Assembly: GCA_913056305.1 (NCBI GenBank)
Contig: CAJXMR010000011.1
Coordinates: 1-58,080 of the forward strand
Length of the DNA: 58,080 nt
Source of the DNA: an uncultured Ralstonia sp.
GTDB taxonomy: Bacteria; Pseudomonadota; Gammaproteobacteria; Burkholderiales; Burkholderiaceae
Direction of reading: 5' to 3'
The notes under the pieces are model-generated. The model had not been told where the DNA came from, ran no database searches, and saw only the letters and a list, made by a program, of their open reading frames with translations. The position numbers and the translations under genes were made by a program. This document shows, piece by piece, positions 30,757-46,757 of this stretch (positions are counted from its first letter, which is position 1; each line of letters opens with the position of its first letter).

Positions 30757-31461
30757 ATGCGATTCAAGCGACCGCAGGTGCGCTATGCCGATACGCCGCA
30801 GCCTGCCACTCCGTATCAATCCGCCGCGCAGGCGTGGGACGAGCGCATCGGCTCGGCCCGTGTGCAGGCGAAGAACTGGCGGCTGATGGCCTTCGGCTGC
30901 CTCGTGCTCGCGCTGCTGATGGCCGGCGGTCTGGTGTGGCGTTCGGCGCAATCCATCGTGACGCCCTATGTAGTGGAGGTGGACAAGTCCGGTCAGGTGC
31001 GCGCGGTCGGCGAAGCCGCCACGCCGTACCGGCCGGCCGATGCGCAGATCGCCTACCACCTCGCGCACTTCATCACGCTGGTTCGCTCGCTGTCCATCGA
31101 CCCGATCGTGGTGCGGCAGAACTGGCTCGACGCCTACGACTACACCACCGACCGAGGCGCGGCCGTGCTCAACGACTACGCGCGCACCAATGACCCGTTT
31201 GCGCGCGTCGGCAAGGAGTCGGTGACGGTGCAGATCACCAGCGTCGTTCGTGCCAGCGACTCGTCGTTCAATGTGCGCTGGACCGAGCAGCGATTTGTCA
31301 ACGGCGCGCCGGCCGGTGCCGAACGCTGGAACGCAGTGGTCTCCATCGTCCTGCAAACCCCGCGCACCGAGCAACGCCTGCGCAAGAACCCGCTGGGTAT
31401 CTACGTCAACGGCCTGTCGTGGAGCCGTGAACTCGATGCGTCCGAAGGAGCCAAGCCATGA
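30757..31461 (+). CDS. trbF: TrbF, VirB8-like inner-membrane protein
   Basis: A 234-residue bitopic protein: cytoplasmic N-terminus, one membrane helix (about 46-64), then the periplasmic VirB8/TrbF domain (TPYVVEVDKSGQVRAVGEA...). AGGAG precedes the ATG at 30757. It scaffolds the translocation channel. It overlaps trbG by ATGA. Confidence 0.95.
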   Translation: MRFKRPQVRYADTPQPATPYQSAAQAWDERIGSARVQAKNWRLMAFGCLVLALLMAGGLVWRSAQSIVTPYVVEVDKSGQVRAVGEAATPYRPADAQIAYHLAHFITLVRSLSIDPIVVRQNWLDAYDYTTDRGAAVLNDYARTNDPFARVGKESVTVQITSVVRASDSSFNVRWTEQRFVNGAPAGAERWNAVVSIVLQTPRTEQRLRKNPLGIYVNGLSWSRELDASEGAKP

Positions 31462-32447
31462 ACCAGTCTTTCCGCTTTTACGCTTTCGTGCTGACCTTGG
31501 CGGCCCTGTCGGGCTGCGCCTCGCAGGGCAAGCCACCACCGCGCATTTCTCTCGACGAGCCGGTGCAGGCACAACCGCTGCCCGAACCGCCGAAGCCTGT
31601 TGAAGTGGTGGCGGTGCCGAAGGTGTTGCCGATGCCGGCGCAGATGAAGCCGCTGCCGGAAGTGGATGAGGCCAAGCCAGCGCCGGAGCCTGCCGACGAA
31701 ACCTTGCGCGTATCGCGTGCGAACGCCGAAGCGCGCATGGCACCCACGCGCGAGGGCTATGTCAATGCGATCCAGGTCTGGCCCTTCACCGATGGCGCGC
31801 TGTACCAGGTCTATGCGGCGCCGGGGCGCGTCACGGTGATTTCGCTCCAACCCGGCGAGGAGTTGGTGACGGTCGCCGCCGGCGATACGGTACGCTGGAT
31901 TGTCGGCGACACGTCCAGCGGCGCCGGCAACTCGCTGCGTGTCAGCGTGTTGGTCAAGCCGATCCGCTCGGGCCTCAAGACGAATCTGGTCATCACCACC
32001 AGCCGGCGCACTTACCTGATCGAGCTGACATCGACTGACAAGGCGTGGATGGCGTCAGTGTCATGGGAGTATCCGAAAGACCAGATGCTTGCCTTGCAGC
32101 GTCAGGATCAGGCCGCGCAAGCGGCAGCGCCGGTCGATACTGGCCTATCGCTGGAGAAGATCCGCTTTCGCTACGCGGTCAGCGGCAGCAATCCGCCTTG
32201 GAAGCCGCTGCGCGCTTTCGACGACGGCGAGAAGGTCTACATCCAGTTCCCTCCTGGCATCGCGCAAGGCGAGCTGCCTCCGCTGTTCGTCATCGGCGCG
32301 CAGGGTGACGGGCAACTGGTGAACTACCGCTTCCGTGCCCCGTACTACATCGTGGACCGGCTGTTCGGCGCAGCCGAACTGCGCCTGGGCGGCGATAAGG
32401 GCGACGTGGTGCGCATCGAGCGCACGGACGGTACGAAGGGGAAATGA
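31458..32447 (+). CDS. trbG: TrbG, VirB9-like outer-complex protein with lipobox
   Basis: A 329-residue VirB9/TrbG protein. The N-terminus FVLTLAALSGCASQ has a good lipobox with cysteine 20, followed by a proline-rich linker (25-75) and the VirB9 beta domains. Canonical VirB9 is not lipidated; a separate small lipoprotein (VirB7/TrbH) does that job, and no trbH is seen here. TrbG may therefore anchor itself in the outer membrane. Confidence 0.94.
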   Translation: MNQSFRFYAFVLTLAALSGCASQGKPPPRISLDEPVQAQPLPEPPKPVEVVAVPKVLPMPAQMKPLPEVDEAKPAPEPADETLRVSRANAEARMAPTREGYVNAIQVWPFTDGALYQVYAAPGRVTVISLQPGEELVTVAAGDTVRWIVGDTSSGAGNSLRVSVLVKPIRSGLKTNLVITTSRRTYLIELTSTDKAWMASVSWEYPKDQMLALQRQDQAAQAAAPVDTGLSLEKIRFRYAVSGSNPPWKPLRAFDDGEKVYIQFPPGIAQGELPPLFVIGAQGDGQLVNYRFRAPYYIVDRLFGAAELRLGGDKGDVVRIERTDGTKGK

Positions 32448-33727
32448 CCATGAGCCAGGACGACACCCCGGACGTGCCCATTCCCGACGCTGCGCCAAAG
32501 GTCGCGCCTGAGAACGTGGCGCTGCGTGCGCAGCCGCGCCCGGTAACGCGGCTCAATCGCCGCACGCTGGCGATGCTGACCGGCGGCCTCGGCGTCGCTG
32601 TGCTGGGCGCAACCATGTGGTCGTTGCAGCCGGCGCATCGGCGCGGCGGCAACGAACCGGCCGAGCTTTACAACGTGGATCGCGTCTCGCGCTCCGAAGG
32701 ACTGGACCAGCTTCCCGCCGACTACTCCAAGCTACCGCCCAAGGTGCCAGAGCTGGGGCCGCCGTTGCCCGGCGACCTGGGGCCGGCAATCGTGAAGTCA
32801 CAACCGGCGGTGGCCAGCTACACGCCGCCCGGCCAAGACCCCGGCGCGGCCGAGCGTGACGCACGGCGCAAGGAGGCGGAAGCGGCTGCGGGATCGACGG
32901 TGTTCTTCCGCTCCAGCAACCAGCACGCCGCAACCGCACCGGCGCAGGTGGCTGCTGCCGGTCCGACATCTGGCTTGGCGGGCTTCGATCCGCAGGCCGC
33001 GGGGCCGGCCTCGACAGCGGCGCAGCCTGCCGACCCAACCGCTGTGCAGAACCGGCAAGACCAGAAAGAGGCGTTCCAGAAAGCCGGAACCATCGAAACC
33101 CGTAATTCCGGCAACCTGCAAATGCCGACCTCGCCGTATCAGGTGATGGCGGGGACAGTGATCGCGGCGGCGCTGGTGACAGGCATCAAGTCGGACTTGC
33201 CGGGCGACGTGATTGGCACAGTGACGGAGCCGGTGTACGACACCGCGACCGGCCGCTATCTGCTGATCCCGCAGGGGTCGCGCATCTTTGGCAAGTACAA
33301 CAGCCAGGTCGCCTACGGGCAAAGCCGCGTGCAAGTAGTGTGGAATCGCATCATCCTGCCGGACACGTCTTCCCTGACGCTGGACAACCTTGCCGGCACC
33401 GACCCGGCCGGCTACGCCGGCCTGGAGGATGGCGTCGATTGGCATTGGGATCGCATCGTTGCAGGCGCGGCGCTGACGACGCTGCTGGGCGTCGGCGCCG
33501 AGTTGGCCGCGCCGGAGAACCGCAATGGTGATCGCATCATCGTCGCCGGGCGAGACAGCCTGCAGGACAGCGTGAATCAGGCCGGGCAGGAGATGACCCG
33601 ACGCAACCTCAACATCCAGCCCACACTGACCGAACGACCGGGCTTGCCGGTGCGCATCATCGTTAACCGCGACCTGGTACTGCGGCCGTACCAGCCGCTG
33701 TTCTTTAATCGGAGGGCTTCGCAATGA
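32444..33727 (+). CDS. trbI: TrbI, VirB10-like core protein
   Basis: A 427-residue VirB10/TrbI protein: one membrane helix (about 44-62), a proline-rich periplasmic linker, and a C-terminal core with YQVMAGTVIAAALVTGIKSDLPGDVIGTVTEPVYDTATGRYLLIPQGSRIFGKY, the VirB10 signature. It spans both membranes and senses ATPase activity. It overlaps trbG and the DUF2274 gene by four bases each; ATG at 32450 is an alternative start. Confidence 0.96.
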   Translation: MTMSQDDTPDVPIPDAAPKVAPENVALRAQPRPVTRLNRRTLAMLTGGLGVAVLGATMWSLQPAHRRGGNEPAELYNVDRVSRSEGLDQLPADYSKLPPKVPELGPPLPGDLGPAIVKSQPAVASYTPPGQDPGAAERDARRKEAEAAAGSTVFFRSSNQHAATAPAQVAAAGPTSGLAGFDPQAAGPASTAAQPADPTAVQNRQDQKEAFQKAGTIETRNSGNLQMPTSPYQVMAGTVIAAALVTGIKSDLPGDVIGTVTEPVYDTATGRYLLIPQGSRIFGKYNSQVAYGQSRVQVVWNRIILPDTSSLTLDNLAGTDPAGYAGLEDGVDWHWDRIVAGAALTTLLGVGAELAAPENRNGDRIIVAGRDSLQDSVNQAGQEMTRRNLNIQPTLTERPGLPVRIIVNRDLVLRPYQPLFFNRRASQ

Positions 33728-33960
33728 GCACGACCCGCAAGCTGCGACTGGGGCCGCTGCCGAAAACCGAAAGCGTCAAGCTGACCTTCGCGTGTCCTGC
33801 CGCGCTGAAGGCCGATCTGGACCGCTACGCCGCACTGCATGCGCAGGCATACGGCGAAGCGGTCGATGCGACCACGCTGATTCCTCACATGCTGGAAGCG
33901 TTTATCGCAGGGGATCGCGAGTTCAAACGGGGGAGGGGTGTCAAAGGGGGTGCGTCCTAG
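33724..33960 (+). CDS. DUF2274 protein closing the trb operon
   Basis: A 78-residue DUF2274 protein (KLRLGPLPKTESVKLTFACPAALKADLDRYAALHAQAYGEAVDATTLIPHMLEAFIAGDREF). The strand-helix-helix pattern resembles ribbon-helix-helix DNA binders. It is the usual last gene of the trb cluster in Tn4371-type elements and overlaps trbI by ATGA. It may autoregulate the operon (inference). Confidence 0.9.
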   Translation: MSTTRKLRLGPLPKTESVKLTFACPAALKADLDRYAALHAQAYGEAVDATTLIPHMLEAFIAGDREFKRGRGVKGGAS

Positions 33961-35033: not shown

Positions 35034-36080
35034 TCACGCAGACGGTTGGCTCTCCAGGTCCCCATTCGCTCCAACGGCATTCGCCTTCTGCTGAATAGCC
35101 TGGCATTGCTGGAGCAGGGCGTCGAACGATTCGACCTCATCGAGGAACAGCCCGTCGTCGACCATGTGTTGGTAGTCGGCGGCCAACTTGGCCAAGGCCT
35201 CGTCGTTGGGCACTAGGCACAGCCCGCCCGAGACGGCGGCGTAGTAGTCGATCGATGCGCCGTCCGGGCTTTTTTCCGCGAAGAAGATGCTCTTGTGATC
35301 GGCCACCGCCTTCGCGAGCGCCCTGTCGGCGATCGCCGCGTCAGCGAAGCCGGCGGCGTCCAAACGCGTTACGTCGTGCCAGTGACGTGCAAAGCGCTCA
35401 CCACCGCGAAAGACACCTTGCGCGCAAAACACGTGGATCGCGGTGGCCTTCTCCCAGAAGGTCCGCTCGGCACGCATCACCTGCGGCGTCGCTTCGGGGA
35501 ATTCCACGCCTTCGAGGTGCGCGGCGGCGTCGCAACGGACCGCGCGCGGTTCGCAAGGCTCCCCGGTGGAGCGCGCGCCGAATTCGAGCATGACCGCCGG
35601 CGGCACATAGCCCGTTCCTGAAGCCAACGGCGTGTAGTCGATGAACACCTTGTCGCCTTCGGCGCGGGCCTGGGCCGGCAGACCCTGCTGCTGCAGGTCC
35701 TGCTGAAGCCGCAGGACGACCTCGTCCGTCACCCATTCAGCCAGCCGGGTGCGAATCTCCTTGCTCCATTTCTTTTCCTGGCTCTTGCTGGCGGGAAGGG
35801 GCGTGCCTGCCTCGCCGATCAGATCGCCGGCGATGGCGCGGATGTCATAGGTGAGATCCACGTCCTCGGAAAAACGCTGGATGACGCCGTAGGCCTTCGA
35901 CAGCGAGGTGCCGCCCTTGAAGATGAGATGCGACGCGTAGGGCGCAGCGAAGAGATGGCCCAGAGCCCATACCACCCAGACATCCTTCTCCAGCAGGTGG
36001 GGAGGGCGGCCGGAAGCGTTGGCCGCCTGGGCCAGCGCTTCCAGACGCTCATCGGCAGACAGGTCGAAGAACTTAGCCAT
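35034..36080 (-). CDS. AbiEii-type nucleotidyltransferase toxin
   Basis: A 348-residue nucleotidyltransferase of the AbiEii/AbiGii family. The active site G56-G-T-S-L-S-K62 is followed by D73-V-D75, and KDVWVVWALGHLF upstream is also typical. Such toxins act as the killing half of type IV toxin-antitoxin systems giving phage abortive infection; MenT-type relatives transfer nucleotides to tRNA. Its start overlaps the antitoxin gene by 8 bases, the expected arrangement. Confidence 0.92.
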   Translation of the reverse strand: MAKFFDLSADERLEALAQAANASGRPPHLLEKDVWVVWALGHLFAAPYASHLIFKGGTSLSKAYGVIQRFSEDVDLTYDIRAIAGDLIGEAGTPLPASKSQEKKWSKEIRTRLAEWVTDEVVLRLQQDLQQQGLPAQARAEGDKVFIDYTPLASGTGYVPPAVMLEFGARSTGEPCEPRAVRCDAAAHLEGVEFPEATPQVMRAERTFWEKATAIHVFCAQGVFRGGERFARHWHDVTRLDAAGFADAAIADRALAKAVADHKSIFFAEKSPDGASIDYYAAVSGGLCLVPNDEALAKLAADYQHMVDDGLFLDEVESFDALLQQCQAIQQKANAVGANGDLESQPSA

Positions 36081-36669
36081 GCGACACCAGCGCGCTCACT
36101 TCCTTTGCCATCCATGTCGGCAGGCGCGCACGTGCCGATGCGACTTCCTTCATCTCGGCCGCCGGCAGTTTGGCGCGCAGCGTGCGCAGCGCTTCACCGG
36201 CGCGCTCGGGCCCCAGCCAGGCCAATGCCCGCACGACATCGCCGGCAGCGCGGCCAGGAAAAATCAACTGCCACACCGGCGCGTGCCGGAATTCGACGGT
36301 CTGGGCCCCCAGCTTCAACCGGCGGCTGGGGCCGGAGGTCAGGTAGACGGAGCGCACGGGCACTTGCGTGGTCAGGCCCAGCGCGTTGGCCGCCGCCGCA
36401 CCATGCGACACGATGGTTTCGCCGCGCTGGTGGGCCAGCCCCTCGACCATTTTGGAGGCCGAGGGGGCGCGGGAGCCAAAACGGCTCTCCACCGGCAGGA
36501 CATAGATGCCGCGACCGGCGCGCAGCAGGGCGCCGCGCTGCACGAGTCGAGACAGCACCTGGTCCATCGCCGCCCGGTTTCCCAAATGGAGCAGTTCCTT
36601 GGCGACCAAGGGTGTGCCCTCCGGCAATCCGGCGGCGTGCTCTAGTACCTGTTTGGCGAGGGTTTGCAT
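36073..36669 (-). CDS. AbiEi/DUF6088-type antitoxin
   Basis: A 198-residue protein with an N-terminal winged-helix region (LLHLGNRAAMDQVLSRLVQRGALLRAGRGIYVLP, about 26-60) and an AbiEi-like C-terminal part (SRFGSRAPSASKMVEGLAHQRGETIVSHGAAAANALGLTTQVPVRSVYLTSG). It neutralises the partner toxin and represses the operon in the family. AGGAGA lies upstream of the ATG at 36669. It is divergent from the 36838 operon. Confidence 0.9.
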   Translation of the reverse strand: MQTLAKQVLEHAAGLPEGTPLVAKELLHLGNRAAMDQVLSRLVQRGALLRAGRGIYVLPVESRFGSRAPSASKMVEGLAHQRGETIVSHGAAAANALGLTTQVPVRSVYLTSGPSRRLKLGAQTVEFRHAPVWQLIFPGRAAGDVVRALAWLGPERAGEALRTLRAKLPAAEMKEVASARARLPTWMAKEVSALVSHG

Positions 36670-36775
36670 GGTGGGAATCTCCTAACTGGTAGAAGTATGA
36701 AGGAATTTCTGACACTTTTCAAGAGATGAGGGCTTCTGTACTTGCCATGGAAGCAAGCATTCCCGTAGTTTTCTG

Positions 36776-36804
36776 TTCTAAACGAAACTTTTTCGTGGTA
36801 AAAT
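36776..36804 (+). promoter_or_regulatory. Promoter with palindromic operator of the defence operon
   Basis: A -10-like TAAAAT lies at 36799-36804, about 34 bases before the first ATG of the operon. Between it and a weak -35 (TTCTAA at 36776-36781) sits ACGAAACTTTTTCGT (36782-36796), a 6-bp inverted repeat around 3 bases. A palindrome in the promoter spacer is a typical repressor site. The XRE-ImmA protein encoded second in the operon is the natural candidate to bind it. Confidence 0.55.
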
Positions 36805-36837
36805 GCCGAAAAGCGAAATCAGACCTTTGGAGGACGA

Positions 36838-37485
36838 ATGGCCCAGCCGCCCGTAGACACAATTCCCGACCTGTTGCAGCGCAGCCTGCCGCGCGAGCTG
36901 GTGATGGCCGTCGAGGAAGCCTTGACCGTCGGCGCCCAGCGCGCGCACGCCGCATCCAAAGGCATGGACGAAGGCCACTTGCCCCACGTCGTGGGTCAAC
37001 TGCGGCATTTCCACATGAACGAGGCGTTTCATCGGGCACTGGAAATGGGCGAGGCTTCGCCAACCGCCATTCGCGGTAACGGCATCGTCAGCGGCCGGGC
37101 CGGGGTGTTCACACTGGCCAGGTTCAACATCCCGGACGGCTTCTGGATCAACGGCCGACGTAGCCACACGCGCCGCCAGATGTCCTATGCGAACAAGGCC
37201 ATTGAGCCGTTGGTGCAACCGGAACTGTTCGATCAATACACCGCGCCTGCCGATGCGGTCGCGTTTTTCGTGGCGTGCTTCTCGGGCTCGCTGCATATCC
37301 AGCCAGAGTCGCCCGTGTCGATCCAGATTGCGGTGCCGGACCGCGAGATGCGCGGCTGGCTGTTCAAGGAACCACTGAATGCGTTCCTGCAGCGGTACGA
37401 ACAAAAGCCGGCGGCGCAGGACGACCTGGCCAAGCCCAAGCTCAAGAAGATCAAGAAGCAGGGCAACGATGGCAGCGCGTCATGA
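36838..37485 (+). CDS. Unknown protein, first gene of defence operon
   Basis: A 215-residue protein starting behind TTGGAGGA. I do not recognise the family. It looks soluble and mixed alpha/beta. Histidine-containing helices (HVVGQLRHFHMNEAFHRALEMGE) occur near 50-75, VFTLARFNIPDGFWINGRRSHTRRQ near 88-113, and a lysine-rich tail (KPKLKKIKKQGN, about 198-210) that could bind nucleic acid. It overlaps the XRE-ImmA gene by ATGA, so the two are translationally coupled and may act together, for example as a substrate or partner of that protease. Confidence 0.8.
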   Translation: MAQPPVDTIPDLLQRSLPRELVMAVEEALTVGAQRAHAASKGMDEGHLPHVVGQLRHFHMNEAFHRALEMGEASPTAIRGNGIVSGRAGVFTLARFNIPDGFWINGRRSHTRRQMSYANKAIEPLVQPELFDQYTAPADAVAFFVACFSGSLHIQPESPVSIQIAVPDREMRGWLFKEPLNAFLQRYEQKPAAQDDLAKPKLKKIKKQGNDGSAS

Positions 37486-38690
37486 GCCGCGGTGGTATTC
37501 AAGGCTTTGAAAGCGAGCGCCTCAGTCAGATTCTTGCCGCGAGGCGTTTGAGCCAAGCGCAACTTGCCTCGCTGGTCGGCGTGTCGCCCGCGACGGTCAG
37601 CAAATGGCGGTCGGGCAATCAGGCGCCCGAACGGGAAACCCTGGAGCGCCTTGCCGGCGTGGTCAACGTCACGCCCGAATGGTTCACGCGGGCGCCCTCG
37701 GCCAAGGTGTCGCTGCCGCTGTTTCGCAGTAACGCGTCCGCCCACGTGGCGGCGCGCGCGATGCTGGAAGCGCGCATGGAGTGGGCGCAGGACGTCGCGC
37801 TCGCGTTGTCCGAGTTCGTGGACTACCCGGCGCTGAATTTGCCGACCCGGCAGTTCAAGGAGCCCGATGAGATCACGCCTGACGAGATTGAACTGGCGGC
37901 GAGCGAATGCCGCGATCTGTGGCGTATCGGCCGTACGGCGGTGCCCGACCTGGCGCTGGCCATTGAAGGCGCTGGCGTCGTCCTGATCCGCGAGGAAACG
38001 GGCATTTCGCAGATCGAGGGCCTGTCGGCATGGAGCGATGCGCTGGGGCGCCCGCTGGTATTGCTCTCGGCCGACAAGGATAACGGCTATCGAAGCCGTT
38101 TCGACTTGGCGCACGAACTTGGCCACCTGATCCTGCATCGGTTCATTCCCCGGCCGACCGAGCGTGACCGTCATAAGCAACTGGAACAGCAAGCCCATCG
38201 CTTTGCGGGCGCATTCCTGCTACCGGCCGAAACGTTTGCAAATGAAGTCCGCACGCCGGTGACGCTGGACGATCTTCTCTTGCTCAAACGCAGATGGGGT
38301 GTGTCCGTCGCTGCGATCGTGATGCGTTTGCGTGCGCTGAAGATTCTGGATGAAGAAGCGGCCCAGTCGCTGTTCAAACGTCGGTCCGCCCGTTGGGGCG
38401 CGAAGTCCGAGCCGGGCGACGGCGATAGGCCACCCGAGCGGCCGCGCCTGCTGCGTCGAACGATCGATCTGCTCGTCGAGGAAAACGTGATGCCGATCGA
38501 CTCGATCCCCAGGCACATTGGCCTGGCGGCCCATGACATCGAGATGCTGGCTGGCTTATCGGAAGGGTACTTCCAGGGCAAGCCCAAGGTTGTGCAGCTG
38601 GCTCGGTTGCGTTCAGTGCCCAGTGGCGCGGACGCACCGGTTGCCACGGACAGCAACGTCGTGCCGTTTCGATTTTCGCCGAAGCGTTGA
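37482..38690 (+). CDS. XRE-ImmA/IrrE regulator metalloprotease
   Basis: A 402-residue fusion. The N-terminal XRE helix-turn-helix (LSQILAARRLSQAQLASLVGVSPATVSKWRSGNQAPERETLERLAGVV, about 13-60) is followed by an ImmA/IrrE metallopeptidase domain with H211-E212-L-G-H215 and the downstream EQQAHRFAGAFLLP. A C-terminal domain (about 300-402) resembles the extra part of ImmA regulators. Relatives cleave repressors after DNA damage or phage cues. It probably represses or derepresses this operon. Confidence 0.92.
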   Translation: MSRGGIQGFESERLSQILAARRLSQAQLASLVGVSPATVSKWRSGNQAPERETLERLAGVVNVTPEWFTRAPSAKVSLPLFRSNASAHVAARAMLEARMEWAQDVALALSEFVDYPALNLPTRQFKEPDEITPDEIELAASECRDLWRIGRTAVPDLALAIEGAGVVLIREETGISQIEGLSAWSDALGRPLVLLSADKDNGYRSRFDLAHELGHLILHRFIPRPTERDRHKQLEQQAHRFAGAFLLPAETFANEVRTPVTLDDLLLLKRRWGVSVAAIVMRLRALKILDEEAAQSLFKRRSARWGAKSEPGDGDRPPERPRLLRRTIDLLVEENVMPIDSIPRHIGLAAHDIEMLAGLSEGYFQGKPKVVQLARLRSVPSGADAPVATDSNVVPFRFSPKR

Positions 38691-38701
38691 TCGGCGCGTC
38701 T

Positions 38702-39604
38702 ATGGAGATCAGTCAAGCGATGAATGACATTGACGCAGTACTGAGCAACAAACCGATTTCACCGTCGCGGGAGATGGCGGCGTACGAGGCGTTGTGGGCG
38801 CATCAAAAAGCGACGTTCAAGACGATCGCTGACTGCTTCCGCGATAGCCCGAATGCGATGCCCTCCGAGCTGGTCTCGGAAGAGGAAATTGACACGGCGC
38901 TACAGCGGGTGCAAGACCAGATTGCGCACACGAAGATTCACGACTTTGGTGTGCGTTTGCATGGCGCAGAAGACTACCCCGATCGGTTGCGCGATGCCGC
39001 GCATCCCGTCGAACTGTTGTACTACCGAGGCTGGTGGGATCTGATCGACTCGCCTAAGCGGATCGCCATCGTTGGCTCGCGCAGCGTGTCCGACGACGGC
39101 TTGCGCCGAACCCGCAAGTTGGTGAAGCTGCTGGTCCAAGACGGCTACACCATCGTCTCCGGTTTGGCCAAAGGCGTGGATACCGCGGCACACACGACGG
39201 CCATTGACAACGGCGGCAGCACGATTGCCGTGATCGGCACACCGATTACCGAGTATTACCCACCCGAGAACCGGGCGCTGCAAGACTTGATTGCCGAGAA
39301 ATTCCTGCTGGTGAGCCAGGTGCCGATCTGGCGCTACTCGACCCAGGACTACCGTAGCAATCGCCTGTTCTTCCCTGAGCGCAATGCCACGATGTCAGCG
39401 CTCGCGCAGGCAACGGTCATCGTCGAAGCCAGCGATACGTCCGGCACGCTGGCGCAAGCACGCGCGGCGCTGCAGCAGGGGCGCAAGCTGTTCATTCTGG
39501 ACAACTGCTTTCGCAATCCGAAGCTGACATGGCCGGCCAAGTTCCAGAGTCAAGGGGCCATTCGCGTCACCGGCATCGACGACATCAGGGCAGCTCTTGG
39601 CTAA
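38702..39604 (+). CDS. DprA/Smf-like Rossmann protein
   Basis: A 300-residue DprA-related protein. The Rossmann core shows IAIVGSRSVSDDG with G125-S-R127, then VSGLAKGVDTAAHTTAIDNGGSTIAVIGTPI (from about 152) and ATVIVEASDTSGTLAQARAALQQGRKLFIL. The core fold is that of DprA, which loads RecA on single-stranded DNA; here it is in a defence setting, beside PRTase genes, as in ShosA of the ShosTA system. The N-terminal 90 residues are distinct. The ATG at 38702 is chosen; 38720 (better spaced from GGAG) and TTG 38687 are alternatives. Confidence 0.9.
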   Translation: MEISQAMNDIDAVLSNKPISPSREMAAYEALWAHQKATFKTIADCFRDSPNAMPSELVSEEEIDTALQRVQDQIAHTKIHDFGVRLHGAEDYPDRLRDAAHPVELLYYRGWWDLIDSPKRIAIVGSRSVSDDGLRRTRKLVKLLVQDGYTIVSGLAKGVDTAAHTTAIDNGGSTIAVIGTPITEYYPPENRALQDLIAEKFLLVSQVPIWRYSTQDYRSNRLFFPERNATMSALAQATVIVEASDTSGTLAQARAALQQGRKLFILDNCFRNPKLTWPAKFQSQGAIRVTGIDDIRAALG

Positions 39605-40235
39605 GCGCGTACTCAAAATCGATGCCCTGACACTTCCGGATCATCACTATCTGGACGCACAGGACATTTGCTACTACGCAGGTGAATACACTGCGGGCGA
39701 GGGGCATGCCTACAGCGAAACCAACCAGCTGATCCTCAACTTCAAGAAGTCCGTGGACAAGCGTGGAACCGCGCAGTGGCAATACAAAGAGCGCGCGATC
39801 CTGCAGGCAGCGGCAATCTTTCGTGCCGCGATCAAGGCTGACGCCGAAATCACCTTCGTCCCGATCCCGCCGTCGAAGGTGAAGAGCGATCCGCTATACG
39901 ACGATCGCATGCTGCAATTGCTGCAGGCCGTCTGCCGGGGGCGTCACACCGACATCCGTGAACTGGTCGTCCAGCGCGAATCGGCGGCGGCGGCCCATCT
40001 GTCGGACACGCGCCCGACGCCGGACGAACTGGTCGCCAACTATCAACTCGACGAGAGCTTGGCCGAGCCGGCCCCCCAGACCATTTTTGTCGTAGACGAC
40101 GTGCTCACCACAGGCTGCCATTTCAAGGCGGTGAAGCAAGTGCTGGAGCGGCGATTTCCCGAGGCACGCATCGTCGGGCTGTTCCTCGCGCGGCGAGCGC
40201 CCAAGTCGGTGGACTTGGATTTTGACAGCATCTAA
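39597..40235 (+). CDS. ComF-like phosphoribosyltransferase
   Basis: A 212-residue PRTase-fold protein with the PRPP loop TIFVVDDVLTTGCHF (D167-D168, T171-T172-G173) and a VPIPPSKVKSDPLYDDRM block as in ComF-type proteins. No ATG occurs before the core, so it very probably begins at the TTG at 39597, overlapping the DprA-like stop by 8 bases (TTGGCTAA). DprA plus PRTase mirrors ShosTA, in which the PRTase is the toxin. The intact PRPP loop suggests it is active. Confidence 0.88.
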   Translation: MAKRVLKIDALTLPDHHYLDAQDICYYAGEYTAGEGHAYSETNQLILNFKKSVDKRGTAQWQYKERAILQAAAIFRAAIKADAEITFVPIPPSKVKSDPLYDDRMLQLLQAVCRGRHTDIRELVVQRESAAAAHLSDTRPTPDELVANYQLDESLAEPAPQTIFVVDDVLTTGCHFKAVKQVLERRFPEARIVGLFLARRAPKSVDLDFDSI

Positions 40236-40258
40236 GAACAGGACAAGGGACACGCCAC

Positions 40259-41398
40259 ATGCTGATCGTCATGACCTCTCCGGACGCCGTCCTGCGTAAT
40301 GGCCAACCCGACCCGCAACTCGCCCAGGTGTTGATCAACGCCAAGGCGGCGGGCAATCCGGTGGGCTTGATTTCCAATCATGCGGAACCGGCCTGGTTTA
40401 ACGGGACGTTTGGCACCAGTGGCGTTCAGTTCCTGCAAAGTCGAGGGCGGCAATCGGGCGAGATCGTGTCGCAGAACGCCAAGAAGTTTGCGCTCAATCC
40501 CTTCGATGCGCTGGTTCTCGCGGCAAAGGACGAAGACGTCCAGATGGGGAAGAACGGCGGTGCGATCCTCGTGGCAGCCGGATGGTCGGCAGCACAGCAG
40601 GTCGCCTCACTGGGCATTCGCGTGGACAGCGCCGCGCAGCTGCAAGAGATCATCAACCTGACGGCCGGCTGGTCGGGGCAGTGGTGGTATGCAGGCGACG
40701 CTGGCCGCTATCGGGTGCGTGCGCTTAGCGACTTGTCCGGCCTTGGCAAAGGTGTCACGCAGCAACTGTTCGCGCAGCGGCTGACCGCCACCGTCAAAGG
40801 CGGTGGCGCGCGACTGAACGCTTTGCTGGCCGTCACCTCGCGTTCGCTGCTCATGGAAAAAGTGAACGAACTGGATGGACTGGTATGGGGCGTCTATCCG
40901 TCGTCGAAGAGTGCTAACGACGATGACGAGATCCTTAGCGATTTCACGCATCGCTTGCGAACGACGGTTTCCCGCGTTCGCTTCTCCAAGCGGGGAGAGC
41001 CGCTATTCATTCGGCACACCCCTTCGCCGAAGCGCTCGGCGGGTGGTGGCGGTGATCGAACCGATCCGACCGGCCAAATTTCGACCATCCACCTGAACCC
41101 TTTCTACAAACAGAGCGGACGATTGGTCGGAAAGCACGTGATCGTTGTGGACGATTGCACGACCTACGGTGTGTCGTTTGGCGTTGCCGCGGCCTTCTTG
41201 CGCAAAGCCGGTGCCGCCTCCGTGACGGGCGTTGCGCTGGGGAAGTTTGGCAATCAGTTGCGTTACTACGAGATCGACATCAAGACCGATCCGTATCAGC
41301 CGGTCGTGGCCGGCGGCTTCACCGTGGCCGCACCGGGGTGGTTCCCCGGCGCCACCAGTGGCGTCGCTCAGCAGGTTCTGCTGACCTTGATCCCGTAA
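40259..41398 (+). CDS. HAD-like/phosphoribosyltransferase fusion
   Basis: A 379-residue two-domain protein. The N-terminal part resembles a HAD phosphatase fold (MLIVMTSPDAVLRNG at the motif I place, LISNH as motif II, and AKDEDVQMGKNGGAIL as motif III/IV), but the first aspartates DxD are replaced (TSPD), so it is probably degenerate. The C-terminal domain has a PRPP loop HVIVVDDCTTYGVSFG (D298-D299). It is the second PRTase in the operon and could be toxin, modifier or partner of the first. ShosT-like identity is inference. Confidence 0.85.
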   Translation: MLIVMTSPDAVLRNGQPDPQLAQVLINAKAAGNPVGLISNHAEPAWFNGTFGTSGVQFLQSRGRQSGEIVSQNAKKFALNPFDALVLAAKDEDVQMGKNGGAILVAAGWSAAQQVASLGIRVDSAAQLQEIINLTAGWSGQWWYAGDAGRYRVRALSDLSGLGKGVTQQLFAQRLTATVKGGGARLNALLAVTSRSLLMEKVNELDGLVWGVYPSSKSANDDDEILSDFTHRLRTTVSRVRFSKRGEPLFIRHTPSPKRSAGGGGDRTDPTGQISTIHLNPFYKQSGRLVGKHVIVVDDCTTYGVSFGVAAAFLRKAGAASVTGVALGKFGNQLRYYEIDIKTDPYQPVVAGGFTVAAPGWFPGATSGVAQQVLLTLIP

Positions 41399-41412
41399 CC
41401 AGGCTGACGGTC

Positions 41413-42237
41413 ATGGACCTGCGGGCGCTATTCCAAAGTTACAAGCCAGCCTTGGTGCGCATCACGGTGCAGACGCCGGTGGGCGATTTGAGTACCGGCA
41501 CCGCCTTCCATATCGGTGACGGTTGGCTGGTCACGGCGGCCCATGTGCTGCGCGATGGTGTCGTGCAGGAAGTGGTGTCCGAGCATGCGTCGGTGCCATT
41601 GACCGTGCAGTCGGTGATCTTCAACAAGGACGATCGCATCGACCTGGCCCTGATGAAGACCGATCTGGATCTGTCGCACTACCTGGACATGACGACGATT
41701 CATGGTTCACCGAAAGGCTTTGTGCAAACTGACCATATCGAGATCGGTGGGCATCTGGACGACTGGATCGGCGACGAGTTGGTGCTCTCAAAAGTGCTGC
41801 TCATGGGCTATCCGCCGATTCCGTTTTCGCAGCAGGCCGTGCTCCTGGCGTCGGAAGGAGAGGTCAACGCGGTGATGGACAAATACAGTGGGCCGCACCC
41901 GCATTTCATCATCTCGTGTCCGGCGAGGGGTGGTTTTAGCGGTGGCCCCGTATTGAGTGAATATGGCTTTTTGCTGGGGGTGCTTGTCGAAGCGCTCGTG
42001 ATGGATGGCAAGGACGCGGAGACCGGCTATTCGAGCGCCATCTCGATCGAGCCCCTGCTGGTCATGTTGCACGACAACGGCATCTATCCCGGCAAGAACC
42101 GCCAGATCATCGAGGCGCTTATTGGTGGCATCGACAACGGCTTCGGGAAGCCGTCCTTGCGGATGCGCTGGATGTGGTTCATCGAGAAATCAATTCTAAA
42201 AATTCGGATGCTGATCCGGCGAAACAAGAGGATGTGA
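41413..42237 (+). CDS. Trypsin-like serine protease
   Basis: A 274-residue chymotrypsin-fold protease with complete triad: H44 in VTAAHVL, D77 in RIDLALMK, and S176 in GGFSGGPV. There is no signal peptide, so it should act in the cytoplasm. The C-terminal tail (about 250-274, LRMRWMWFIEKSILKIRMLIRRNKRM) is basic and amphipathic and may touch membrane or nucleic acid. The ATG at 41413 is 14 bases after the HAD-PRTase gene, and the Argonaute gene follows 6 bases later. Caspase- and trypsin-like proteases are known effectors in bacterial immunity; here it may process a partner. Confidence 0.92.
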   Translation: MDLRALFQSYKPALVRITVQTPVGDLSTGTAFHIGDGWLVTAAHVLRDGVVQEVVSEHASVPLTVQSVIFNKDDRIDLALMKTDLDLSHYLDMTTIHGSPKGFVQTDHIEIGGHLDDWIGDELVLSKVLLMGYPPIPFSQQAVLLASEGEVNAVMDKYSGPHPHFIISCPARGGFSGGPVLSEYGFLLGVLVEALVMDGKDAETGYSSAISIEPLLVMLHDNGIYPGKNRQIIEALIGGIDNGFGKPSLRMRWMWFIEKSILKIRMLIRRNKRM

Positions 42238-42243
42238 GGGCCT

Positions 42244-44499
42244 ATGGGACGACAGCTGCAGCTCAATTTCACGCCGCTGCGAGTGCGCGGTGATGCCATT
42301 CGGCTGCAGGCGTTGCCCTTTGAGGACGCGCAGCAGTTCCGGAATCTGCGCGACGAGCACCGCGCGCACTACGCCGTGACCCGTCGATCAGATCACATCG
42401 TGGCGCTGCCGCTTACTTTGAATGCGTCGCCCATCGGCGAAGAAAAGATTGTTTCGGTGGTTGAGCATGCTTCGCTCATCCGGCCGCTGCTTGAGCAGCG
42501 TCTCGTGACCTTGCTCAGTTCCAATCGGCGACCGGTGGCGCGCTATAACCCGATTACCACCATAGGGCGCACCTTGCCGACGGGCTTCATCGAAGCCGAC
42601 CGGCATCTTCATCTGCAATCGCGGGTCTTGATCGCGATCCGCTCGTTAAAGCTACCGGACGCAGAACCACTCGGTCTCTTGTGGGACATCGAGATTCAGA
42701 AGACTTGCGCAACCAGCCTTGCCGTGTTGCATGCGCAAGGCGTTCGGCTGGATGGGTTGACGGTCGAGCGCCTGGTGCCGGTCGAAGATGTGCGCATGCT
42801 GCCCTATCGCCGGCTGGTGGGTCGAGTCGGCGCGCTCACGGACGGCCACGCGCGCCTGTCCGAGCGGTTTCAGAATGTAGAGGAGTTGCTTCCACTCGAC
42901 GAGCTGTACCTGGAGGCCTCACCTGAGAATCTTCGGCACCTGCTGCAGCACTTCATGCGGAATACGTCGGGCAGGGTGCAGGGCAAGATCGATGAGATCG
43001 TGTTCGAGAACAGCAGAGGGCGTGCGCGCATGGAGCACATTGCCCGGATTTCGGACTGGCTCCGCGGCCTCGGCGAGATCGAGCTGCAAGAAGGTCTCAG
43101 CGTTGGCATCGGCAACCTGCTGAGCGAGAAAGATGCGCAGAACTTCCCCCGTTTCACCGAGGGCACGACGCCGACCTATGTTTTCGACGCCGGGACGCTC
43201 AAGTCGGAGTCGCGGGCTGCGGTCGGTCTAAGCAAGTTCGGTCCCTACAGTCGCCACGTCTTCACGCCCACGCGGCCTAATGTCTGCGTGATCTGCGACC
43301 GCGCGCGGCGTGGTCAATTTGAACTGTTCCTTCGGAAGTTTCGGGATGGCCTAACGGTCGACGGCAAGTCACTGCCATTTGGGCGAGGGTTTCTCGGCAT
43401 CTACGGACTGCAGGACATCAACCTGACGTTTGTGGAGGCCGACGCCTTCACGGCCGACGCCTATCATGCGGCTGCTTCCAAGGCGGTCCGGATGGGCGCC
43501 GAGGGCGCGCCCTGGCATCTGGCCTTGGTGCAGACCGAGCGAGACTCACGCCAATTGGCGCCGCCGAAGAATCCGTATCTGGTGGCCAAGGCGGCGTTTC
43601 TCTCCAATCAGATCCCCACGCAGTTCGTCGCGTTCGAGACGTTCTCGATGGCGCCGCTCAATCTCGCCTACACCCTTAGCAATCTCGCCCTTGCGGTCTA
43701 TGCCAAGCTCGGCGGCATTCCCTGGTTGATCAAGTCGGATAAGGGTATCGCGCACGAGGTGGTCATCGGCCTAGGCAGCGCAGCGATTGGCGAATCCCGC
43801 TTTTCAAGGAAAGAACGCATTGTCGGCATTACCAGCGTCTTTCGCGGTGACGGCGGCTATCTGCTATCGAATCTGTCGAACGCTGTTCCCATGTCGAAGT
43901 ACGGAGAGGCCCTGACCGAATCATTGCAGGCCACCCTTCAGCGCGTGCGCAACGAGATGAACTGGATCAGGGGCGATTCGGTACGCGTGATCGTTCATGC
44001 GTTCAAGCCAATGCGCAATACCGAGGTGGAATCGGTCAAGGCGGCGTTGAAGGAGTTCTCTGAATTCGATCTGCAGTTCGCCTTCCTGCACGTCAAACAG
44101 GACCATCCGTATCTGCTGTTTGACGATGATTCCATCGGGACCAAGGGCAGGGGAGAGAAGACGCCGGTTCGAGGTCTTTTTGCGGAAGTCGGACACAATG
44201 AGACCTTGTTGACGTTGACGGGGCCGCAGCAGCTCAAGCGCCCGACGGATGGCCTACCCAAACCGCTACTGCTAAGCCTGCATCGCGATTCGACGTTCAC
44301 GGACATCATCTATCTCACCAAACAGGTCTATTGGTTTTCGAACCATTCCTGGCGCAGCTTCCTGCCGGCGGCGATGCCGGTCACCATCTACTACTCCGAC
44401 CTTGTCGCGGGTCTCTTAGGGCGGCTTGACCGTTTGGGTAGCCGGTGGAGTCCGAGTGTGATGCTCGGCAAGATCGGCACAACGCGGTGGTTTCTATGA
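42244..44499 (+). CDS. Long prokaryotic Argonaute, catalytically inactive
   Basis: A 751-residue Argonaute-type protein. The MID domain (about 370-500) has NPYLVAKAAFLSNQIPTQF with Y445, K449 and Q460 at the 5'-guide binding positions. The PIWI domain (about 500-751) begins EVVIGLGSA, where the first catalytic aspartate is glycine (G511). The third acidic position (RDG in active enzymes) reads VHAFKPM. Hence it should bind guides but not cut, like long-B pAgos. The first 370 residues show no clear PAZ. It overlaps the nuclease gene by ATGA, so that nuclease is its likely effector. Confidence 0.88.
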   Translation: MGRQLQLNFTPLRVRGDAIRLQALPFEDAQQFRNLRDEHRAHYAVTRRSDHIVALPLTLNASPIGEEKIVSVVEHASLIRPLLEQRLVTLLSSNRRPVARYNPITTIGRTLPTGFIEADRHLHLQSRVLIAIRSLKLPDAEPLGLLWDIEIQKTCATSLAVLHAQGVRLDGLTVERLVPVEDVRMLPYRRLVGRVGALTDGHARLSERFQNVEELLPLDELYLEASPENLRHLLQHFMRNTSGRVQGKIDEIVFENSRGRARMEHIARISDWLRGLGEIELQEGLSVGIGNLLSEKDAQNFPRFTEGTTPTYVFDAGTLKSESRAAVGLSKFGPYSRHVFTPTRPNVCVICDRARRGQFELFLRKFRDGLTVDGKSLPFGRGFLGIYGLQDINLTFVEADAFTADAYHAAASKAVRMGAEGAPWHLALVQTERDSRQLAPPKNPYLVAKAAFLSNQIPTQFVAFETFSMAPLNLAYTLSNLALAVYAKLGGIPWLIKSDKGIAHEVVIGLGSAAIGESRFSRKERIVGITSVFRGDGGYLLSNLSNAVPMSKYGEALTESLQATLQRVRNEMNWIRGDSVRVIVHAFKPMRNTEVESVKAALKEFSEFDLQFAFLHVKQDHPYLLFDDDSIGTKGRGEKTPVRGLFAEVGHNETLLTLTGPQQLKRPTDGLPKPLLLSLHRDSTFTDIIYLTKQVYWFSNHSWRSFLPAAMPVTIYYSDLVAGLLGRLDRLGSRWSPSVMLGKIGTTRWFL

Positions 44500-45710
44500 G
44501 CGCCGGCAACCCGATGCTGCACGAAGCGCTGCGCGCAGTAGCGGGGCAGGCCGAGACACTGACGACTGCGGGCCCGCTGTCGATTGCCTTTTATCACTGG
44601 GTGCTCGCCGAAGGGTTGTCCACCCAGCAGAGCGCCGCGATGGCGCGGGACCTGTGCGAAGAGATTTCCGGCGGTGGTCGGTCGATTCATGCCGTGGCGG
44701 CTTTGGGGTTCCTGCTGAGCATCGATCCGACGTTGAGTGATGCATGCCGCGACTCATTCGCGCAGGGCGTGGACTGGCTGATGGGGCGTAGAGGCGATTC
44801 CCAAACGGCTCTCGTCAGTCTGATGCAGCCGTTAGCGCATACCGGCGTTCTGGTGGGTTTGTTGGCCACATCCGATGATGTGCGGTGGTCGAAATTCGGC
44901 GCATGGTTCGCGTCGCTCTATGCAAAGCTGCAGCCGCTGTTGCCGGCGGAAGTCGGCTGGCGCCATGAACTGCTGTCCATGATCAAGACGCGGTCCGAGG
45001 TGGGATTGAAGGGCGAGCTGGCGGTGGTGCCCGCCACCGCGGGCGCAGCTATTTACGTCGCACGTCGCTTGGCGGATGCTTCGCCGGCGGTCGATAACGA
45101 CTTTGCGTCGCAGTTGCTTAGCCGCATCAAGTCGGTTGTTTATGACGACCCTGAACAGGCGGCCTTGGATCTGGCAGCGTTTCACTATCTCGCCCAGGGC
45201 GCGGCGCAGATCGATCTGCGCGCACCGAGCCTAGACGATGTCGGACTGCTGCTTCGCCGGCTCCCATCCGGGTTGCGTCGGTGGACCTGGGACGAACAGA
45301 AGAAGACGCCGAACTCGACCGCGCAAAAGTGGGCGGTTGAAAACGAATATCACTTTCAGAATCTTCTGTGCGCGGTGCTTTCGCCAGTGTTGCCCGATCT
45401 GCGTGATGAAGAGTGGCTTGCGTCGGTGGGGCAAAAGAAACCGCGGGCAGACTTAGTAGTCCCGTCGCTGCACCTGGTGATCGAGGTCAAGTATTGGCGA
45501 AAAAGCAGCACGCCGCAGGACCTGATTTCGCAGATTGGTGAAGACGTCAGCCTTTACCTGAAGCGGGGCAGCCCCTATCGCAAAGTGCTTCCGATCATCT
45601 GGGACCAAGGACGACGCACAGAGCAATACGACCTGCTTATTGCGGGACTTAGTGAGATTCGCGACGTGGTCAGCCCGGTCGTTATCGCTCAACCGGCGTT
45701 TATGGTTTGA
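44496..45710 (+). CDS. pAgo-coupled PD-(D/E)XK nuclease
   Basis: A 404-residue protein whose C-terminal domain has the PD-(D/E)XK nuclease signature D319...E330-V-K332 (PRADLVVPSLHLVIEVKYW), preceded by NEYHFQNLLCAVL and followed by DLISQIGEDVSLYLKRG. The N-terminal 290 residues are helical and unrecognised, perhaps the Argonaute-contact part. Its start overlaps the Argonaute stop (ATGA). In known BPAN-type systems an inactive long-B pAgo activates such a nuclease to degrade DNA, giving abortive infection; that mechanism is inferred here. Confidence 0.88.
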   Translation: MSAGNPMLHEALRAVAGQAETLTTAGPLSIAFYHWVLAEGLSTQQSAAMARDLCEEISGGGRSIHAVAALGFLLSIDPTLSDACRDSFAQGVDWLMGRRGDSQTALVSLMQPLAHTGVLVGLLATSDDVRWSKFGAWFASLYAKLQPLLPAEVGWRHELLSMIKTRSEVGLKGELAVVPATAGAAIYVARRLADASPAVDNDFASQLLSRIKSVVYDDPEQAALDLAAFHYLAQGAAQIDLRAPSLDDVGLLLRRLPSGLRRWTWDEQKKTPNSTAQKWAVENEYHFQNLLCAVLSPVLPDLRDEEWLASVGQKKPRADLVVPSLHLVIEVKYWRKSSTPQDLISQIGEDVSLYLKRGSPYRKVLPIIWDQGRRTEQYDLLIAGLSEIRDVVSPVVIAQPAFMV

Positions 45711-45759
45711 GCAGTGTCCACACAAAGCCAATGAAATTGCATGAAGAGAGGAGACCCGA

Positions 45760-46191
45760 ATGAGTAGTTCGAACTGCCCACTTGAGGAAGGCGATCGCAT
45801 CGATCACAAGCTCTTCGGATTCGGAACTGTCGTGGGCGCACCTGTTCCCATGGTGGGCCCTGACCTCCGAAGCGCCAGTGGCGTCCGCGACGCCGGCTGG
45901 AGCGTTCCGGCCAAATGGGACGACCCGACGCGGACCGCCGGTGCCGTGATGCACCAGGCGCTACGCAAAGTGTCATCGCCTGACTCGCGGCCCTTCGGCC
46001 ACTGGGATCGGCAGTGGCAGCCTCTGCTGCAGGCTTGGCTAGCCGCTCGACGCGACGTTGAACAGTTGTCGTCAAGCTTCCGGCCCGTACCCGAGCCTGA
46101 TGCTTTGGCACGAATGCAGGACGTTGAGAGAAAAGCCTTCGAAGCGATGCGGCACTTTTGGGACGCCGAGCAATCGGGGGAGCATCCCTAG
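45760..46191 (+). CDS. Hypothetical protein closing the island
   Basis: A 143-residue protein behind GAGGAGA. The N-terminus LEEGDRIDHKLFGFGTVVGAPV resembles the small G-D-x-V-x-H-x-x-FG-x-G-x-V beta-barrel seen at the C-terminus of UvrD-type helicases, followed by VPAKWDDPTRTAGAVMHQALRKV. The rest is helical. Separate by 49 bases from the nuclease gene, so possibly co-transcribed. Function unknown; a nucleic-acid-linked role is a guess from the barrel. Confidence 0.7.
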   Translation: MSSSNCPLEEGDRIDHKLFGFGTVVGAPVPMVGPDLRSASGVRDAGWSVPAKWDDPTRTAGAVMHQALRKVSSPDSRPFGHWDRQWQPLLQAWLAARRDVEQLSSSFRPVPEPDALARMQDVERKAFEAMRHFWDAEQSGEHP

Positions 46192-46360
46192 ACGCGCTCC
46201 AAGTCCCAGCGACCGGATGGTGCTCGCCTGCCTGCGCTTACGTCGGCTGACGGTTGGGGATTTCTCCGGTATCCTGAGAGCTGATTGATGATGGTGTCGA
46301 AAACCCAGCTCCCGCGCAAAGCGCTCCATCTCCCGCGCCAGCAAAAGATGGTCGCCCTTG

Positions 46361-46450
46361 ACGGTAAAAGCGACGGTAGTGCCCCATGTCGATCAGGCCC
46401 AATCCCTTTAACCACGCGGGTTTGCGAGGCTCATTGATGATCGAGTGGGA
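46361..46450. repeat. Imperfect direct repeat, copy A
   Basis: The last 50 bases (46401-46450) align without gaps to 49065-49114 at 36 of 50 positions, and the preceding AAAGCGACGGTA is shared as well. Shared blocks are CCTTTA, ACGC, TGATGA and GAGTGGG. The other copy lies about 2.66 kb to the right, beyond the LysR gene. It is likely a dispersed intergenic element or remnant. Confidence 0.6.
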
Positions 46451-46500
46451 ATAATTCCGCCTCTGGCAGCCACCGGCATCCGGTGGCGCCAACTTCCTGA

Positions 46501-46529
46501 AAGCCCGCGTCCTAGCGGGCTTTTTTTTT
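46501..46529 (+). terminator. Rho-independent terminator
   Basis: AAGCCCGC (46501-46508) and GCGGGCTT (46515-46522) form an 8-bp stem around a 6-base loop, followed by an unbroken run of nine T (46521-46529). It is a strong intrinsic terminator for rightward transcripts coming from the defence island; the minus-strand direction has only three T. Confidence 0.9.
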
Positions 46530-46574
46530 CTGCTTGGTTCCGGCAACAATAGGCAGCGTGCAGGGGCAAGCCGG

Positions 46575-46757
46575 TCAGCCTCCTTTTGTAGCCAAGCTGT
46601 ACGCAGCCCTGCCTCGGCGCCCAAAGCAAAGCACCTTGGTCGCGATCAGTACCATCGCCAGCGCTGCAAACACCCAGCCACCGACCACGCCAAATTCGTT
46701 GGTGTAGAGGCAGAACCGCCTCAACGCGATGAGGAACAGCGCGCGCCCGGCGTTCAT
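46575..46757 (-). CDS. Small single-pass membrane protein
   Basis: A 60-residue protein whose ATG overlaps the stop of the serine hydrolase gene (46754-46757), indicating translational coupling. It has one hydrophobic helix (GVVGGWVFAALAMVLIATKVLCF, about 23-45) and a basic C-terminus. No family recognised. The coupling is the main support for its being real. Confidence 0.6.
   Translation of the reverse strand: MNAGRALFLIALRRFCLYTNEFGVVGGWVFAALAMVLIATKVLCFGRRGRAAYSLATKGG

Follow-up and report, generated by a model that had tools for sequence, protein, structure and literature searches.

A stretch of 58,080 nucleotides from an uncultured Ralstonia sp. (contig CAJXMR010000011.1; the whole stretch is hereafter the window) carries eight rightward open reading frames (ORFs), g1 to g8, between positions 36838 and 45710. 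The eight genes are three catalogued defence modules set head to tail, RosmerTA (g1-g2), a ShosTA-type module of DprA and phosphoribosyltransferase (PRTase) genes (g3-g5) and BPAN (g7-g8), together with the serine protease gene g6. The run is probably a stacked defence super-operon of three separable abortive-infection modules. This reading is built on gene identities, motifs, the adjacency of protease and DprA/PRTase genes, a promoter footprint and the separate occurrence of the modules, all of them observed, and takes the activities of the proteins from those of their relatives. The genes are listed below with their lengths in amino acids (aa), where given, and their main profile matches or motifs. 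Other loci and genomes are cited by L and G numbers.

36838..37485, + strand: g1, RmrT-type toxin, 215 aa; PADLOC RmrT (PDLC03937), 7e-23
37482..38690, + strand: g2, RmrA, helix-turn-helix (HTH) plus ImmA/IrrE (M78) peptidase, 402 aa; PADLOC RmrA, 8e-127; Pfam M78, 3e-20
38720..39604 (alternative starts 38687, 38702), + strand: g3, ShosA-type DprA antitoxin/sensor; PADLOC ShosA (PDLC03961), 2e-100
39597..40235, + strand: g4, short ShosT-type PRTase, 212 aa; PADLOC ShosT, 2e-48; motif VVDDVLTTG
40259..41398, + strand: g5, second PRTase, 379 aa; PADLOC ShosT, 1e-51; motif VVDDCTTYG
41413..42237, + strand: g6, trypsin-like serine protease, 274 aa; Pfam Trypsin_2, 1e-12; triad H44/D77/S176
42244..44499, + strand: g7, catalytically inactive long-B Argonaute; PADLOC pAgo_II, 2.5e-243
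44496..45710, + strand: g8, Argonaute-associated nuclease (bAgaN); PADLOC Aga_Helical-REase, 6e-119; D-x10-EVK motif

Separate occurrence of the modules

The full eight-gene set was not found again in any genome, plasmid or viral-contig search. A DNA search of 200 genomes of the source order gave some match in 22, and G028 alone matched at length beyond g1-g2. In G028 the genes g1-g5 are colinear, with 78-84% protein identity, and nothing of g6-g8 is present. A near-identity search of plasmids did not recover the region; its sole matches were two short ones to AbiEii.

The Argonaute end of the run occurs elsewhere without the rest. The comparison covers 11 other long-Argonaute loci, four in genomes and seven on plasmids (the best six among them, from 13 plasmid records). 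DprA/PRTase, RmrTA and protease genes are absent from the stretches fetched at all 11 (tblastn, 1e-6). A g8-like nuclease is present in eight of them, and some of the Argonaute genes there are broken. Similarly, long-B Argonaute is absent from the stretches fetched, some of which end near the module (e.g. L104), at all 22 other ShosTA-type loci (L048-L052, L055, L058, L059, L102-L105, L117-L122, L139-L142). Within this set the PRTase is broken in L117 and L118, and only the DprA gene is recognised in L122. Both toxin-antitoxin modules also exist as two-gene loci, ShosTA in L102 and L104 and RosmerTA in L106, L108 and L109. RosmerTA lies within 5 kb at two of the 22 ShosTA-type loci, G028 and Agrobacterium tumefaciens L117 (different RmrT/RmrA subfamily), and an RmrA-like gene is found 6 kb away in L048.

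The preliminary description of this DNA had proposed one immune system of eight genes, and this is not supported. In the stretches fetched the halves occur largely independently, because DprA/PRTase genes are found at none of the 11 other long-Argonaute loci and a long Argonaute at none of the 22 other ShosTA-type loci. It knew of no description of the full set; the complete set was found only in the window, and every module is catalogued. In a single integrated system the RmrA/ImmA sensor would be the common trigger, and the PRTases, the protease and the Argonaute-nuclease pair would be interdependent, obligate effectors. Such a system would account for the single conserved promoter footprint described below, for gaps of at most 29 bp at every junction and for the joint presence of g1-g5 in G028. 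The separate loci above, the two-gene examples included, and the restriction of the full set to the window nevertheless make it very improbable.

Identity of the modules

The gene g1, unnamed in the preliminary description, is RmrT by its PADLOC profile and has no Pfam or NCBIfam match. Its neighbour g2 carries HExxH at residue 211. The pair has the features of RosmerTA, an RmrA with HTH and M78 (ImmA) domains and an adjoining RmrT toxin. By PADLOC, g2 also resembles CapP/CapH, which are regulators of CBASS operons. Four genomes besides G028 carry g1-g2, with no ShosTA in the stretches fetched (the L107 contig ends 0.3 kb after g2). According to passages of PMC10440598, the ImmA-type protein of RosmerTA is the antitoxin and one RmrT depolarises membranes.

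The likeness of the DprA and PRTase genes to ShosTA, pointed out previously, is borne out by profile matches and by solved relatives. The protein g3 matches solved ShosA 9vzo (3e-17), g4 and g5 both match the ShosT profile PDLC03962, and the g5 profile matches solved ShosT 8zvb (1e-9, residues 64-325). No solved relative of g4 was found in the structure-sequence search. Both ShosTA features are therefore present, a DprA-type antitoxin ShosA and an adjoining PRTase toxin ShosT (g4, g5). The VVDD-type motifs of g4 and g5 are taken here to be the phosphoribosyl-pyrophosphate (PRPP)-type motif. Earlier gene identities hold throughout, with a reserve on the HAD part of g5, for which Pfam gives no HAD match. 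The N-terminus of g5 looks like a degenerate HAD domain in alignment with ShosT relatives, with T/S at the position of the HAD nucleophile in Rhizobium ShosT, and this part is degenerate in g5 relatives too. An AlphaFold model of g5 from a four-row alignment had a mean pLDDT of 40.8 and was not used. Assignment of g3-g5 to PsyrTA was considered and rejected. The RecQ-helicase-PRTase is absent, g5 matches PsyrT at the PRTase end only (2e-4), and g4 does not match PsyrT even at E up to 1.

Parts of the review PMC12593503 describe ShosT as a phosphoribosyltransferase/pyrophosphatase that disturbs purine metabolism and ShosA as DNA-binding, and name T7 Gp0.7 as trigger. Elsewhere a phage single-stranded-DNA-binding protein is mentioned as trigger (PMC10732053, in part), and protection by a DprA/PRTase system against T7 and lambda is reported (PMC9122126, in part).

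The second PRTase is rare. A strong full-length match to g5 occurs in 2 of 399 genomes of the source order, the window's own included (24 weaker partial matches were set aside as other PRTases). In the family of Rhizobium Leaf453 it is found in Leaf453 only (199 genomes). A viral-contig scan with g5 confirmed no locus; a protease scan of the same contigs later gave the g5 relative L141. The search for the ShosA family in 398 genomes was swamped by housekeeping DprA (367 of 398 match), and besides the window only G675 and G736 stood out and were followed up. Relatives of g5 with at least 65% identity are present in seven loci (window, G028, L048, L050, L051, L052, L141; a fragment in L053 is excluded). 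A DprA gene belongs to the module in every one of the seven, and in five the protease adjoins g5.

On rhizobial plasmids, L058, L059, L118 and L119 hold two different ShosA/ShosT pairs tail to tail. One PRTase of L118 is split by an IS66 element.

The BPAN likeness of the inactive long Argonaute and nuclease is likewise confirmed, as both proteins match the solved EcAgo-EcbAgaN pair 23wq. The match of g7 to EcAgo covers residues 8-751 (5e-106), and it also matches inactive RsAgo (4e-98, residues 158-751). At what are presumably the catalytic Asp positions of active Argonautes, g7 carries VIGLGS and VHAFK, with G and F in place of Asp. The match of g8 to EcbAgaN (9e-34) aligns the D-EVK motif with the same spacing. 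The BPAN features are thus present, a tetrad-less long-B Argonaute, its gene upstream of the nuclease gene (44496/44499 overlap) and a C-terminal D-EVK nuclease. Long-B Argonaute occurs in 5 of 398 genomes of the source phylum, window included, of which G760 is a weak match. Passages of PMC10620215 describe simple operons of two or three genes with the Argonaute gene upstream of the nuclease gene (section 6), the C-terminal D-EVK motif (section 7) and the degradation of cellular DNA by BPAN relatives after guide-RNA-directed recognition of invader DNA.

Broken modules in similar islands, such as the PRTases of L117 and L118, raise the alternative of a decayed or chimeric operon with no coordinated function. 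In the window all eight frames are open, and the inspected catalytic motifs are intact save the Argonaute tetrad and the HAD-like part of g5. Tetrad loss is a trait of the long-B family and degeneracy of the HAD-like part is shared by g5 relatives, which leaves decay highly unlikely.

The serine protease and its neighbours

The protease g6 has no solved relative in the structure-sequence search. Its best PADLOC matches are the protease region of the type XI retron reverse transcriptase (RT)-Protease (1e-11) and, more weakly, PDC-M35A, LmuA and HamA1 (to 3e-3). An identity as the type XI RT-Protease itself was rejected, the 274 aa protein having trypsin-type matches only and no fused reverse transcriptase. 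The catalytic triad is kept in all 21 protease-family sequences counted, a number that leaves out L056 (broken).

The protease family was followed through 22 loci, obtained by plasmid, genome and viral-contig protease searches, plus L050 and L051 reached through g5. At 15 of them a DprA or PRTase gene lies immediately next to the protease gene, at a distance of 10-228 bp. Twelve of these have DprA (window, L048, L050, L051, L055, L058, L059, L138-L142). The other three (L060, L130, L131) have a ComF-type PRTase and an HI1420-type antitoxin; L060 is assigned by record annotation only, and the matches in L130 and L131 are below the Pfam curated cut-off. Among the 18 loci fetched through protease searches, 11 have such a neighbour, two of which (L055, L059) also appeared in the g5 plasmid search. 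The plasmid search gave 18 records, 12 of them examined (L048 being the twelfth); of the other six, H41-H43, H46 and H47 repeat the identities seen for H40 or H45, and the match of H55 is partial. Repeating it returned the same records plus one Rhodococcus record outside the count. The protease is present in 4 of 299 genomes of the source phylum, window included, and in the family of G578 (100 genomes) in G578 only. No relative was found in the phage collection at E 1e-5. Six loci came from the viral-contig scan; two matches that were partial and weak (L143, L144) were dropped. All four full-length loci adjoin ShosTA genes, and a repeat scan returned the same contigs.

The closest relative of g6 (67%) lies directly upstream of a PsyrT-PsyrA pair in L138 (PsyrT 5e-257, PsyrA 2e-128). 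In all, the protease accompanies two ShosTA backbones and PsyrTA. Its position varies. It is first in gene order in L058, L059, L138, L139 and L140, last in the window, L048, L050, L051 and L055, and on the opposite strand in L141, L142, L130, L131 and L060. Of the co-occurrence of protease, PRTase, DprA and Argonaute genes, which the preliminary description had put forward as a check, one part is borne out: the protease recurs beside DprA/PRTase modules, but the other long-Argonaute loci all lack such genes in the stretches fetched. In the protease tree 5 of 14 inner branches are well supported, and 118 of 500 shuffles cluster the PRTase label at least as strongly. Because the tree is poorly resolved, the order of partner exchanges is not read from it.

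Several observations weigh against the stacked arrangement and the protease link proposed here. Junctions as tight as these, with 6 bp separating g6 from g7, are equally expected of one integrated system. Two of the 22 other ShosTA-type loci (L052, L103) have a short Argonaute nearby. The 15 positive loci are not independent, falling by eye into about nine groups of near relatives, and in L060, L130 and L131 the ComF-type PRTase is on the other strand with a non-DprA antitoxin. Neither G028 nor Bordetella petrii (L052) has a protease with its g5; in B. petrii the adjoining contig was checked too. Seven of the 22 protease loci have no DprA/PRTase neighbour. Their partners are Kiwa (L054), ABC-3C/Lamassu-like genes (L136), HEPN-Toprim (L137) and CBASS without PRTase (L057), and none was seen in L056, L061 and L062. 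Conversely, 12 of the 22 other ShosTA-type loci are without protease, and among the 15 reached by routes other than a protease search it is lacking in 12. The protease is an optional, not a defining, part of DprA/PRTase modules.

These seven loci would also suit a protease that travels in defence islands at large as a passenger and is not specifically tied to DprA/PRTase systems, and the count of 15 in 22 stands without a matched control set of defence genes. The 11 positives among 18 protease-search loci, the four viral-contig loci beside ShosTA genes and an association that spans two ShosTA types and PsyrTA all argue against a passenger, which is considered unlikely. If the link were a passenger effect only, the locus would be an ordinary, though dense, defence island.

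In L052 (3601-10840, B. petrii) a SIR2/short-Argonaute pair (Class I Aga + pAgo_I) ends 46 bp before a ShosT-DprA-g5 module. In L103 (7763-15211) a ShosTA pair lies 2.4 kb from a 440 aa partner gene that overlaps the short-Argonaute gene, and 3.7 kb from the Argonaute gene. Proximity of Argonaute and ShosTA genes is therefore not unique to the window. It is not taken as a rule, because short-Argonaute and DprA plasmid matches had no accession in common, by eye, among the matches listed (60 of 96; 60 of 124 and 50 of 50). RosmerTA-, ShosTA- and Argonaute-type modules do meet repeatedly in islands. In L130 (3419-7802) and L131 (1881-6270) the ComF-type PRTase and HI1420-type antitoxin (in L131 by annotation) stand beside CBASS genes and the protease gene. 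RosmerTA lies upstream, at most 5 kb from the protease and PRTase genes. Perhaps the ComF-type PRTase and its antitoxin are a PRTase toxin-antitoxin pair that uses no DprA. A Kiwa-like neighbour is seen in L054 (6347-8786), where KwaA (7e-75) and a gene annotated DUF4868 are followed by a g6-family protease.

Trypsin-like domains occupy effector positions in LmuA, HamA1 and the retron RT-Protease. A second-effector role for g6 is tentatively ranked first, above that of an antitoxin-cleaving activator, because its best profile matches include these proteins, and is put at a little under an even chance. As an activator, g6 would respond to infection by cleaving either the DprA antitoxin or the complex of antitoxin and PRTase, thereby freeing the PRTase toxin. 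Adjacency to three DprA/PRTase types regardless of gene order and an always intact triad are consistent with this role. Against it, published accounts (passages of PMC9122126 and PMC12593503) present ShosTA and PsyrTA as toxin-antitoxin pairs of two genes, and the protease is found as well with Kiwa and ABC-3C genes, which are without DprA. Activation is accordingly held to be possible, at roughly one chance in three.

Junctions, promoter footprint and possible shared control

From g1 to g8 the junctions measure -4, 29, -8, 23, 14, 6 and -4 bp. The three overlaps claimed earlier (37482/37485, 39597/39604, 44496/44499) are present, and the claimed limit of 24 bases applies to six of the seven junctions but not to g2-g3. 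The gap there is 29 bp, because the G028 homologue of g3 begins at the residue coded by ATG 38720 and not TTG 38687; a start at 38687 would overlap g2. Two further features bear on transcription.

36779..36818, + strand: conserved promoter/operator footprint upstream of rmrT (g1); invariant columns in six RosmerTA loci; putative regulatory role
46499-46524, + strand: terminator-like stem-loop; 10-pair stem plus T-run

Six RosmerTA loci were compared for the footprint (window, G028, G175, G164, G116, G134). The invariant columns comprise two CGAAA repeats on either side of a TAxAAT hexamer; in the window the repeats are at 36783-36787 and 36814-36818 and the hexamer (TAAAAT, -10-like) at 36799-36804. 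The footprint also holds the exact palindrome CGAAANNNTTTCG, which occurs once in the window against 0.08 expected. The other five loci keep only the first half-site of CGAAANNNTTTCG, not the palindrome. A generic sigma-70 scan gave no plus-strand site in 36650-46700 and missed the conserved footprint. The single upstream promoter proposed before is therefore represented by this footprint and by no generic site. For the terminator placed at 46501, the stem and T-run exist, but terminator-like matches in the region (9) are not above chance (shuffle mean 9.0), and the hairpin lies 789 bp past g8, beyond a further ORF at 45760-46191.

RmrA probably represses the footprinted promoter. Its control of all eight genes is plausible because a conserved footprint precedes the operon and an RmrA-type gene, with HTH and ImmA peptidase domains, stands at its head. 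The downstream genes would be on the same transcript, as the short junctions offer hardly any space for further promoters, although intragenic promoters are possible.

Proposed mechanism

Under the stacked-module reading, the protein activities are modelled on those of relatives. The RmrA HTH/ImmA protein would neutralise RmrT and probably repress the single promoter. The DprA protein ShosA would sense abnormal replicating or single-stranded DNA, and would otherwise restrain two PRTase toxins able to upset the nucleotide pool. The protease may be an accessory effector released by the same ShosA sensing. In the BPAN step, the inactive Argonaute would recognise invader DNA by guide RNA and switch on the nuclease, with destruction of cellular DNA.

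A bolder version, thought rather unlikely, makes DprA, PRTase and serine protease a distinct mobile immune system in which one DprA gates both a nucleotide-pool toxin and a protease. An RmrA/ImmA switch would then place this module and BPAN under one damage-responsive control, with three suicides in sequence. The adjacency of the protease to three DprA/PRTase types predicts a protease gated by, or acting on, the DNA-sensing DprA protein. The operon also offers an example in which to ask if a single switch takes charge of defence modules brought together on mobile elements.

Genomic setting

Directly left of the island, at 29380-33960, the window carries Trb-type conjugation genes (TrbL, VirB8, CagX, TrbI, DUF2274), in what is presumably the gene order of Tn4371-like elements. 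The eight-gene operon is apparently cargo of a conjugative element. An AbiEii/AbiEi-type toxin-antitoxin pair (35034-36669, minus strand) is divergent from the operon and forms a further defence-type module in the same cargo region. The G+C content is 0.576-0.618 in g3-g8 and 0.633-0.639 in g1-g2; of six flanking genes measured, four are at 0.649-0.687 and the remaining two at 0.565 and 0.632. The ORF between g8 and the terminator-like hairpin (45760-46191, 143 aa) has no family match above cut-off.

Comparison with known systems

By the features examined, each module belongs to a catalogued family. Three features are apparently new: a serine protease that recurs next to ShosTA and PsyrTA, the arrangement of one DprA with two PRTases, and three systems stacked behind a single RosmerTA promoter. 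No description of a serine protease with DprA/PRTase systems was found in the open-access papers searched, which is weak evidence of novelty as most subscription papers are outside that scope.

The pair g1-g2 matches RmrT/RmrA and, like RosmerTA in L106, L108 and L109, is a unit also found without ShosTA; in the window, however, it heads an eight-gene run. The ShosTA assignment rests on the ShosA profile of g3, the ShosT profile of g4 and g5, and the solved relatives of g3 and g5. The window differs from ShosTA in having two PRTases per single DprA and an added trypsin-like protease. PsyrTA/RqlHI (DprA plus RecQ-helicase-PRTase) is linked to the window through the closest g6 relative, which heads a PsyrT-PsyrA pair, but the window has no RecQ-PRTase. 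The retron type XI RT-Protease and LmuA/HamA1 share with g6 the protease regions that, with PDC-M35A, are its best PADLOC matches. The match is confined to the protease region, whereas g6 stands alone, joined neither to a reverse transcriptase nor to any other fused partner. Finally, g7-g8 resemble BPAN (EcAgo-EcbAgaN) in having an inactive long-B Argonaute upstream of a D-x10-EVK nuclease. They differ in lying only 6 bp behind a protease gene, in contrast to the two- and three-gene operons described in section 6 of PMC10620215.

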